38,978 nucleotides of DNA from Phycisphaerales bacterium (GTDB lineage: Bacteria > Planctomycetota > Phycisphaerae > Phycisphaerales > UBA1924): contig JABWBC010000017.1 in the NCBI GenBank assembly GCA_013360695.1, forward strand, positions 1 to 38,978, written 5' to 3'. Numbering within the stretch: the first letter of the stretch is position 1; every line of letters starts with the position of its first letter. The notes beneath the pieces were generated by a model that worked only from the letters and a program-made list of their open reading frames with translations, was not told the origin of the DNA and searched no databases. Shown piece by piece: positions 18,415 to 36,720 of this stretch. The translations under genes and the position numbers were made by a program.

Positions 18415-18798
18415 TCAGGCCAGTTCGATGGTCGCGCCGGCCTCTTCGAGGCTCTTCTTGAGCTTCTCGGCCTCGGCCTTGTCCAGGCCCTGCTTGACCG
18501 GCTTGCCCGGGGCGTCGACGAAGGCCTTGGCCTCGGCCAGACCCAGGCCGGTGACCTCGCGGACCGCCTTGATGACGCCGATCTTCTTGGCCGCGTCGAC
18601 GGCCTTGAGGACCACGTCGAAGCTGGACTTCTCTTCGGCCTTGGCCGCGCCGCCCGCGGCAGGAGCCGCCATCATGACCGCGCCACCGGCGGCGGCCTCG
18701 ATGCCGTACTTGTCCTTCATGTACTTGCCGAGCTCGACCGCGTCCTTAAGGGAGAGACCCGCCAGAGCGTCGCCGAGCTGATCAACCGTCATCGACAT
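18415..18798 (-). CDS. rplL: 50S ribosomal protein L7/L12
   Basis: 127 residues, the normal size. It has an N-terminal dimerisation domain (to residue ~36), an Ala/Gly-rich hinge and the C-terminal factor-binding domain ([34 protein letters not shown]). L7/L12 is the multi-copy stalk protein that recruits translation GTPases and docks on L10. GGAAGGTG just before the ATG is a good ribosome-binding site. In most bacteria rplL directly follows rplJ. Here about 2.6 kb with another gene separates them, and rplL has its own promoter-like site and terminator. Confidence 0.97.
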
Positions 18799-19048: not shown

Positions 19049-21136
19049 TTAGCAGCCGGACTCGAAGGCGGAGGCGAACATGTCGTAGTCGTCGCCGTTG
19101 ACGAAGCCGTCGTTATTGAGGTCGGCGGCGATGTTGCCGGCCTCGAAGGCGTCGGCGAAGGCGTCGTAGTCGTCGCCGTTGACGAAGCCGTCGTTATTGA
19201 AGTCGGCGACGCAGGGGGCGTACTGGAACTCGAAGGCGCCGCGGTCAATGACGGGGGCGGGGCCGACGCCGGTGTCGCTGACAAAGGCCACGTCGATGCG
19301 GCGGGCGTTGCCGTCGATGTCCTGGCTCCACGTCTCGGCGTAGTTGAGGTCGGCGTCGAAGTCCCAGGGGTCCGTGGGGACGAGGTTGTTGTTGCCGGCG
19401 TCGATGGCGGGCGAGGTGGACTGGAGACGGAAGTTGTCGTCGAAGGTGCCGGGGATGTTGTCAACGCCGTTGATGTCGATGAATTTTGGATCGGGGCTCA
19501 GGCCCTGGATGGTGGTGGAGAGGGCGGTGTAGAAGGAGCCGTGGAAGTTGACGGCGTAGACCTGTGACTCGTCGGTGGTGTTGGGCGCGCCGTCGGAGTT
19601 GCCCCAGAAGATGGAGTTGGTGATGGCGGCGTCGGTGCCGGTGCTGACGTAGAGGCCGCCGGCGGTGCCGGAGGGGGCGTTGTTGTTGGCGAAGGTGGAC
19701 ATGCGAACGGTCATGCCGACGCCGGAGTCGCCCGCACAGGCGATGGCGCCGCCGTCGCCGCTGGAGGCGAGGTTGCCGTTGAAGACGCAGCCTTCGGCGG
19801 ATCCGGCTGCGAAGAGGATCTTGACGGCGCCGCCGGAGCCGGTGCAGTGGTTATCGATGAACTCGGTGTTGGCGAACTGGACATCGCCGGCGGTGTGGTG
19901 ATAGAGCGCTCCTCCCTCGCCGTTGGTCCAGTTGTCGTAGAAGAGGCAGTCGACGAACTTGGGGAACTTGCCGGTGGAGTGGACGGCGCCGCCGTCGAGG
20001 CTGGCGAAGTTGGAGAGGAACTTGACGTTGCGGCAGACGACGGAGCTGTTGACGGCGGACATGCCGCCGCCGCGGGCGTCGTCGCCCGAGCCGCTGGCGT
20101 AGCCGCGGGCGATGGAGAAGCCATCGATGAGCGTGTCGCCGAGGGTGTTGTCGGCGTCGACGACGTGGTAGGAGTTGTCGGTCTGGGCCGAGCCGCCGAT
20201 CGCGCCGCTCATGGCGGTGATGAAGGCCCATGGGTTGGTGCGCTGGGAGAGTGAGGTTTCGGAGCCGGCGAATCCGCCGTACAGCTTGATGCCGCTGGGA
20301 ATGACGAATGAAGCGGTGCGCGAGGTTCCGCTGGTGGGGTAGTAGAAACCTTGGGCGGTCCAGATCTCGACATAGGCGCCACCGATGTTCTTGGCGGCGA
20401 CGAGGGGGATCTGGAGGTCGGTATAGGCGGTGGCCCAGCTGGTGCCGTCGGACGCGCCGGAGGCGTTGTCGTTGACGTAGAAGCGGAGACGATTGCTGTC
20501 GATCTTGCGGAGCTGGAAGCCGCCGACGTGGGCGGTGCCAAAGGGGGAGTCGGCGACCTTGACGGTGATGGAGCCGCCGGCGGAAACAGTAATGACGTGG
20601 ATGGCGTGGGTGATGCCGGGGATGAGCTTGCTGCTGGCCATCGCGCCGCCGACGTACTGATAGGAGCTGGAGGTGCCGGTGACGGTCACGCCGCTCTGGT
20701 TGGCGGAGTCGCCGGGAAGATCGGCGTAGGTGAAGACGGCGTAGGTGCCGGCGGCGAGGTTGTTGAAGCTGTAGGTGAGGGTGCCGAAGCTGGTCAGGCC
20801 CTGATAGTCGAGCATGAGCTTGGCGGCCTCGCCGGAAACACCCGCGTCGGCGGCGGCGGAGAACGTGCCGCTGGTGTCGCGGGTGAAGGTCGCGGCGGAG
20901 TTGACGCCCGAGAGGTCCTTGAGCGTCGAGGTGGTGGCGGAGCTGGCGGTGATGGAGTTCCAGAAGCCGGGCTGAGCGGCGGCGCCGGCGAAGCTGTTGG
21001 CGGGAACGCCCGCGCCGTTGCCGCTGGTGTTGTTGAGGTCGACGTTGAAGCTCTGGCCCATCGCCTGGCCGCAGAGGAGCAGGAGGGTGGAAGCGAGTGA
21101 GGGCAGAGTGATGGCGCGAGACTTTGCGAGAGCCAT
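19049..21136 (-). CDS. Secreted right-handed beta-helix protein with C-terminal dockerin-like module
   Basis: 695 residues from an ATG with AAGGA 7 nt upstream. It has a signal peptide (hydrophobic LASTLLLLCGQAMG, likely cut before QS). The N-terminal third is a beta-rich domain of unknown type. The middle (residues about 270-600) has repeats in the style GGAVHSTG, GGALYHHTAG, GGAVKILFA, GGAIACAG, GGLYVSTG, typical of parallel beta-helix/Pmp-like adhesins. Residues 642-695 hold two EF-hand-like dockerin repeats (NNDGFVNGDDYD) bracketed by Cys642 and the terminal Cys695. Dockerin-like repeats bind calcium; in planctomycetes they probably act in surface attachment (inference). The gene interrupts the rplJ-rplL order and has its own terminator, so it is probably an insertion. 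The substrate or ligand is unknown. Confidence 0.85.
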   Translation of the reverse strand: MALAKSRAITLPSLASTLLLLCGQAMGQSFNVDLNNTSGNGAGVPANSFAGAAAQPGFWNSITASSATTSTLKDLSGVNSAATFTRDTSGTFSAAADAGVSGEAAKLMLDYQGLTSFGTLTYSFNNLAAGTYAVFTYADLPGDSANQSGVTVTGTSSSYQYVGGAMASSKLIPGITHAIHVITVSAGGSITVKVADSPFGTAHVGGFQLRKIDSNRLRFYVNDNASGASDGTSWATAYTDLQIPLVAAKNIGGAYVEIWTAQGFYYPTSGTSRTASFVIPSGIKLYGGFAGSETSLSQRTNPWAFITAMSGAIGGSAQTDNSYHVVDADNTLGDTLIDGFSIARGYASGSGDDARGGGMSAVNSSVVCRNVKFLSNFASLDGGAVHSTGKFPKFVDCLFYDNWTNGEGGALYHHTAGDVQFANTEFIDNHCTGSGGAVKILFAAGSAEGCVFNGNLASSGDGGAIACAGDSGVGMTVRMSTFANNNAPSGTAGGLYVSTGTDAAITNSIFWGNSDGAPNTTDESQVYAVNFHGSFYTALSTTIQGLSPDPKFIDINGVDNIPGTFDDNFRLQSTSPAIDAGNNNLVPTDPWDFDADLNYAETWSQDIDGNARRIDVAFVSDTGVGPAPVIDRGAFEFQYAPCVADFNNDGFVNGDDYDAFADAFEAGNIAADLNNDGFVNGDDYDMFASAFESGC
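19082..19200 (-). repeat. Two 38-bp identical direct repeats in dockerin-like coding sequence
   Basis: 19082-19119 and 19163-19200 are identical and lie 81 bp apart, that is 27 codons, one dockerin-like unit. This points to duplication of a single repeat unit within the gene. Confidence 0.9.
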
Positions 21137-21329
21137 GGGGTGGTCCTTTCCGTGTGTCGTGTGTGGGCCCGGGGCGGAGTGCGTCGCCGCCGCGAGCGTT
21201 AAGTGTCGTCGCAACCCAGTGCGTCGCGGCGGGCCTGAGACGCTCACGGGGTGATCAAAATTTTTGGCGGAGTGGGCGAGAAATCAGGACTTGGAGCTTC
21301 TGTTTATCCTCGCCCGCGGTGTGCGGACC

Positions 21330-30945: not shown

Positions 30946-32670
30946 TCAGCAATTGCCGCCCAGGTCGAAGTCTTCAACGAAGTCGTCGTAGTCGGCGCCG
31001 TTGACGAAGCCGTCGAGGTTGTAGTCGGCCAAGGACAGCCCGTTGTCGAAGAACCAGACAAAGAGATCATAGTCGTCGGCGTTGACGAAACCGTCATAGT
31101 TGACATCTGCCAGACACCACCATCCCAGGTGCTCGCAGGAATCGATACAGCCGTTGTTGTCACGGTCGAACGGGTGAACCCCATCGACGACGACCGCCAG
31201 ATCGACGGAGTCCGAGGTGTAGTTGAGATTGCAGTCCGCGTCGACGTTGAAATAGTACATGGAATCGCTCACGTCGGGGGCGCTGGCCGCCGTCGTCTGG
31301 GCGCACTTCAGTCGTCCGGCCACGGGCGAAATCCGATACTCACCCGGCATGAACGCCGCCTCTCCGCTTCCGCCGTGGATTTCAACTTCTCTCGACGTAG
31401 ACGCCGCTGTGCTTTCCACGTTGATGTAGAAGTGATGGCTGATGTCGATCCAGCTTGATCCGATGTTGTATTCGATGCGCACCGGGCGCGTGGTATCCGG
31501 TACGGCGAACACCGGGCCATAGAAGCGAAGTCGAATGTTCGCATTCGGATGTTGGCCGTTGAATCTCTGATTGAGGGCCGAGTCGAAGAGAGTGGGGCCG
31601 GGCGAGCCGCTGCTGACCGGCGAGCAGTCGTTCACGTAGAGGTGATACGGCACGAGTCCGACCGCTCCACCGCCAAGATACGAACTGGCAACATCGTAGT
31701 ACGGCGCGCCGTGGGAGGTAGGGCTGAGCGTGATCCCGTCGACCTTTACATCGCCGACCCATCCGAAGCTCGAGTTCGACGCATTCAGAATCACGCTGCC
31801 CGCGAGCCCATGCGCAGGCCCTACCGACAAAACGGCCCCCAACGGCAGGTTGTTCCCCGTCCTGAAGACGCGGCCCGCCGCAATCGTCCCGCCGATCTCA
31901 ACTTCGGGTAAGAGCTCGCTGTAGTTGTGAATCTGCCCGGCAATGAGAACATCTGCATCGAGATCGCCCTCGATCCAGAATCGCTGGTATATCTGTTGCT
32001 GGTTGAAGGCGCTGAGTTCGCTGGCGCTAAGAGTTCCCTTGAAGTCGCCGCGCGTGTGAAACGTGCCGATCCAGTGGCCCGGCTCCGTGTTCGCGTCGAC
32101 GGTCGCGTAGATGTTCTGGGCTTCGAGCACGTACAGATTGTCTCGTACGTTGATGGTCGAATGTGCCTGTGGCGCACCAATGTCTCCATCAACTGTAAGG
32201 CGAAGCAGCGTACCAGCGGAGATGTCAATGTCACCAAAGATGCTTCCGAGCACGTGCGTGTTGTCCAGCGAGCTCTGCCCGATCGCCGCGTGCGCTGGTA
32301 GAACAATTGAGCCCGTCACATTGCCGTCGATCGTTGTGGCTAAAATCGAATTCACGACAAGGTCACCCACGTTGCCAGACGATCGGAGGTCAAGGATTAC
32401 AACCGGTCCGGCGCTACCGCGGGCGACCAGATCGATCGACCCAGCTTTGGTACTCGATCTGTCGCTACCAATCCAGACCTTTGCCTGATTCGTAGTGTTC
32501 GCATTGATTAGAATAGTATCAAACTCGTCGTTGTTGTCGCACTTGATCCAGAATGTTGTTGGACCTTGCGCGTAGTTTGCATTGCACGTAACAGTCCAAC
32601 GTCCAGTCGTTGGCGACTGGGTCACTGTCGCCGACGTGGTTTGGGAGCTTTGGTCGAACTCGACCGTCAC
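30946..32670 (-). CDS. Dockerin-tailed secreted protein body, cut off from its signal peptide by an in-frame TGA
   Basis: 574 residues if read from the GTG at 32670, which gives a product with no signal peptide. A signal-peptide-coding ATG lies 24 codons upstream in the same frame, with a single TGA (32677-32679) between them, so the intact gene would span 30946-32742. The body is beta-rich with repeated short motifs (VGDLVVN, IDGNVTGSIVL, GSIFGDIDIS, TVDGDIGA) suggestive of a beta-helix or beta-sheet stack. The C-terminus has two EF-hand-like dockerin repeats (NYDGFVNADDYD, NLDGFVNGADYD) bracketed by Cys (31114-31116) and a terminal Cys. GC is lower than in neighbouring genes. It is likely a secreted surface protein and may be a recent pseudogene. 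Confidence 0.75.
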   Translation of the reverse strand: MTVEFDQSSQTTSATVTQSPTTGRWTVTCNANYAQGPTTFWIKCDNNDEFDTILINANTTNQAKVWIGSDRSSTKAGSIDLVARGSAGPVVILDLRSSGNVGDLVVNSILATTIDGNVTGSIVLPAHAAIGQSSLDNTHVLGSIFGDIDISAGTLLRLTVDGDIGAPQAHSTINVRDNLYVLEAQNIYATVDANTEPGHWIGTFHTRGDFKGTLSASELSAFNQQQIYQRFWIEGDLDADVLIAGQIHNYSELLPEVEIGGTIAAGRVFRTGNNLPLGAVLSVGPAHGLAGSVILNASNSSFGWVGDVKVDGITLSPTSHGAPYYDVASSYLGGGAVGLVPYHLYVNDCSPVSSGSPGPTLFDSALNQRFNGQHPNANIRLRFYGPVFAVPDTTRPVRIEYNIGSSWIDISHHFYINVESTAASTSREVEIHGGSGEAAFMPGEYRISPVAGRLKCAQTTAASAPDVSDSMYYFNVDADCNLNYTSDSVDLAVVVDGVHPFDRDNNGCIDSCEHLGWWCLADVNYDGFVNADDYDLFVWFFDNGLSLADYNLDGFVNGADYDDFVEDFDLGGNC

Positions 32671-32676
32671 GGTACT

Positions 32677-32734
32677 TCAAGCCAAGCCGGGCATGATCGC
32701 GAGCGTGATTCCGAAGAGATAGCGAGAGATGCAA

Positions 32735-32742
<8 letters not shown>
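32677..32742 (-). other. Signal-peptide mini-ORF in frame with the downstream dockerin protein
   Basis: ATG at 32742, preceded by AAGGAG with 8-nt spacing, encodes 21 residues with a typical signal core (YLFGITLAIMPGLA), then TGA. The frame resumes immediately as S-T-V-T-V-E-F of the secreted protein. The ATG overlaps the last 8 nt of the upstream FGE-fold gene, indicating translational coupling. Confidence 0.85.

Positions 32743-36720
<3,978 letters not shown>

Follow-up and report, generated by a model that had tools for sequence, protein, structure and literature searches.

Why does the gene for a secreted dockerin-type protein in an uncultured planctomycete carry an in-frame TGA where its signal peptide gives way to the mature protein? 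The gene lies on the minus strand of the window, by which we mean the whole 38,978-nucleotide stretch analyzed here, contig C207 of the MAG G000 (3.84 Mb, 228 contigs, 89% completeness, 4% contamination) of a Phycisphaerales bacterium. The original prediction offered three readings of the stop: a very recent nonsense mutation, a sequencing error, or programmed readthrough that makes export of the protein conditional. The present study suggests that the TGA is probably a recent single-base nonsense mutation in the gene for a dispensable secreted dockerin-type protein.

Read 5′ to 3′, a Shine-Dalgarno-like stretch, GAGAAGGAGAAGG (32747–32759), is followed by a 4-base spacer, CATC, the ATG start codon (32742–32740), a 21-residue signal peptide (32680–32742), and the premature TGA (32679–32677). 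Past the TGA, the same frame remains open for 576 codons, from AGT at 32676 to TGC at 30949, and closes with a natural TGA (30948–30946), the mature part with its terminator thus occupying 30946–32676. The first possible in-frame restart codon, a GTG (32670–32668), lies six bases past the stop, lacks a clear Shine-Dalgarno sequence, and would yield a product of 574 residues. The order of ribosome-binding site, ATG, signal core, TGA, and continuing frame was therefore described correctly at the outset, and the intact 574-residue continuation with its terminator was reproduced from the GTG. Two elements of that description require refinement. The TGA falls exactly between the signal and the mature part if cleavage occurs after GLA, which would put the stop codon at +1, where the orthologues have Trp. 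Moreover, the Shine-Dalgarno-like sequence is present, and the same bases double as the C-terminal Arg codons (AGA-AGG-AGA-AGG, RRRR) of the gene upstream.

The C-terminal domain of the interrupted protein (30958–31119, query residues 520–573) is dockerin-like, with two Ca-loop-like repeats, DVNYDGFVNADDYDLF and DYNLDGFVNGADYDDF, and it matches about 130 other places in the same 3.8-Mb genome. Its match to NCBIfam dockerin_GC (NF041540) lies below the curated cut-off (13.3 bits vs. 29, E 0.081), and membership in the GC-type dockerin family is not claimed here. An alignment-free structure prediction of the mature part gave no usable information (mean pLDDT 35). The window also contains another dockerin-type gene (19052–21247), which is intact both here and in the related genome G002, at 84.5% identity.

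The interrupted gene is the second gene of a two-gene unit, its start overlapping the end of the gene before it (32735–33754, minus strand), whose stop codon, TAG (32737–32735), sits within the start of the dockerin-type gene in ATGTGTAG. The upstream gene matches Pfam PF03781 (FGE-sulfatase domain), and its product begins with a signal peptide and ends in a tail (VVPSSG...) that by eye is PEP-CTERM-like. Units of this kind recur in the genus, an FGE-sulfatase-domain gene being followed by a secreted dockerin-type gene that overlaps or nearly abuts it, and the FGE member often has a PEP-CTERM-like tail; they were seen at window positions 32735–33754 and at loci L051, L052, L053, L076, L077, L078, and L082. 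A literature search for dockerin together with PEP-CTERM found no papers.

The two closest genomes with the locus, G002 and G003, are Phycisphaerales MAGs (isolates SJ353 and SJ514) that belong to other species of the same genus, and a scan of GTDB 220 returned only the same two. Contig C60 of G002 shares synteny with window positions 18438–38907, while contig C281 of G003 contains the FGE gene and, of the dockerin-type gene, the 5′ third. Both share with the window the FGE gene, which is intact in all three species, the ATGTGTAG overlap with its ATG, an identical GAGAAGGAGAAGG, and the signal peptide, which is identical in amino acid sequence in G003 and similar in G002. At the position of the stop, the codon in both orthologues is TGG (Trp). 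Between 32770 and 32626, the stop base is the sole difference between the window and G003 in 143 nt, and 172 differences are found in 1,500 positions of the wider region. Together, these observations make Trp, at +1 after the signal, the most likely ancestral codon, from which the TGA would have arisen by one G-to-A transition on the window lineage. Identity between window positions 32120–33760 and the G003 locus (L052) is strongly mosaic, ranging from 55% to 100% in 100-nt bins, and the identical runs exceed chance length, a combination that suggests recombination between species of the genus.

The signal peptide itself is an ancestral part of the gene. In intact FGE-paired paralogues of the genus (MRLTSFHIASLSCISIASVCMA-STVVKEY, MKTTIACASISFACSGIALA-DIPIKEY, and MPQNKCVPSLLLLVAFVNTAFA-SIKVEF) the signal stands in frame directly before the mature part, and the same is true of seven distant family homologues. 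Because every intact homologue examined has its signal directly in frame, the GTG is, as judged from these sequences, not the ancestral start. Orthologues starting at the GTG with no signal peptide, which would have spoken against the original prediction, were not found among the orthologues and distant homologues, and it warned correctly that a gene model begun at the GTG would leave out the signal peptide.

The reading as a recent nonsense mutation thus gains from the TGG codon in both congeners and from the stop base being the one difference to G003 across the surrounding stretch. The change would be a G to A at the third position of the Trp codon, the first residue past the signal peptide. 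Translation from the ATG would then end after 21 residues, and full-length protein would be made only in traces, through natural misreading of UGA; alternatively, restart at the GTG would give the signal-less form of the protein. What is seen directly is that relatives have a sense codon here, that the in-frame signal is ancestral, and that lesions occur elsewhere in the family; we infer that this population truly has the allele, in fixed form, and that it causes loss of function. The intactness of the remaining frame does not favor this reading, since a very young mutation, an error, and a tolerated stop would all leave it so. As to the position of the stop, 131 of the 598 codons are one substitution away from a stop codon, a transition being enough in 32 cases, and the Trp codon offers two of the 43 possible stop-making transitions, so that a stop falling just where the signal ends is only mildly coincidental, and was noticed post hoc.

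The gene would be dispensable, since sister species hold independently broken copies. In the G002 orthologue, codon 34 is a TAG, one nucleotide is deleted near codon 183, and a further TAG stands near codon 498; in the G003 orthologue, homology is lost past ∼183 mature residues. Across four genomes of the genus, five of the eight members of the FGE-linked family are interrupted (the window gene, G002:C60, G003:C281, G002:C22, and G002:C33) and three are intact (G001:C222, G003:C196, and G003:C162), although faulty assembly may account for some of these breaks. Pairwise dN/dS for the broken gene is 0.21–0.24 in the window's comparisons vs. 0.14–0.16 for the FGE gene, figures that are pairwise averages and give no date for the mutation. 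Values this low show that selection acted on the protein until recently, and the losses look recent. One could go further and propose that the second gene of the pair is switched off repeatedly (five of eight) because its loss is favored or cycles within populations, with a little exported or cytoplasmic protein still being made through leftover misreading of UGA or through restart at the GTG, the stop thereby serving as a crude switch; we regard this extension as highly improbable.

The main rival to a nonsense mutation is that the TGA reflects a minority strain variant or a one-base error of the assembly or consensus, and that the gene in the population is whole, with Trp at this codon. The sequencing error named in the original prediction is thus an unlikely but appreciable alternative. 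It would fit a source that is a fragmented and incomplete MAG, a frame that is otherwise intact, and the isolation of the one differing base in a stretch otherwise identical to G003. However, consensus substitution errors are generally rare, in the 20 kb of synteny no further premature stop was found in G000 among genes that are clearly shared, and, with the gene independently broken in both sister species, a real loss is unsurprising. Far less probable is a functional role for the frame past the stop, in which ribosomes ending at the TGA would restart at the GTG and produce a 574-residue cytoplasmic protein that serves some separate function. Ribosomes are known to restart at start codons very near a stop, and the GTG lies within that range; however, it has no Shine-Dalgarno-like sequence, the intact homologues are all predicted to be exported, and one would expect a protein of the dockerin type to act outside the cytoplasm.

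Programmed readthrough, with Trp or Sec inserted at the UGA and export made conditional, is the least probable of these alternatives, and this part of the original prediction gained no support: the stop is not conserved, recoding signals were not found, and the genome has the standard code and tRNA set. The ancestral residue is in readthrough's favor, in that natural misreading of UGA by tRNA-Trp would restore Trp, as is the otherwise intact frame. Yet the two sister species lack the stop, and a stop shared by orthologues whose coding sequence is conserved both before and after it, as programmed readthrough would lead one to expect, was not found. Neither was a stimulating RNA element downstream: the 93 nt around and past the stop fold no better than shuffled sequences (z −0.31), and no Rfam family matches there. 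The arrangement of signal, stop, and mature part is also absent from the 60 other dockerin genes examined in the source genome, of which a crude signal detector called a signal in 55, one lying at a contig edge and four being uncalled, including one (L153) that visibly has a signal. Altered tRNA-Trp, of the suppressor type or with a 4-bp anticodon stem, has been connected with UGA readthrough (PMC13092985). The only tRNA-Trp found among 43 tRNA matches in the source genome has the anticodon CCA, a 5-bp anticodon stem, A9, and G24, and shows none of the readthrough-promoting changes named in that work. A change of the genetic code that reassigns UGA to Trp was rejected, since RF2 with its SPF motif is present alongside RF1, TGA terminates 45 of the 59 resolvable dockerin genes sampled, and the tRNA-Trp(CCA) is of normal shape. 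A selenoprotein was likewise rejected, since no tRNA-Sec scored over the cut-off in the genome and relatives have Trp at the codon.

Outside annotation, a recent nonsense mutation in this gene would have small significance. The entry for the gene should show a reading frame broken by a single stop, with the signal peptide upstream of it, and not a cytoplasmic protein beginning at the GTG. The repeated breakage across sister species, in turn, offers a modest example, open to checking, of parallel gene decay among surface proteins of uncultured Planctomycetota. Among known systems, the locus resembles UGA readthrough by tRNA-Trp (PMC13092985) in that UGA replaces a Trp codon and misreading would restore the ancestral residue, but here a canonical tRNA-Trp is the only one found, and more of the examined dockerin genes end in TGA than in any other stop codon. 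With GC-type dockerin and PEP-CTERM surface proteins, the product shares a C-terminal double Ca-loop repeat, a signal peptide, and a partner with a PEP-CTERM-like tail, while its dockerin_GC match, as noted, is subthreshold. In contrast, it departs from bacterial nonsense-mutation pseudogenes and null alleles in position alone, the stop falling at the first codon past a signal peptide. In all else it is like them: orthologues have a sense codon at the position of the stop, one substitution has turned that conserved codon into a stop, the remaining frame is intact, and the gene is broken at other places in its relatives.
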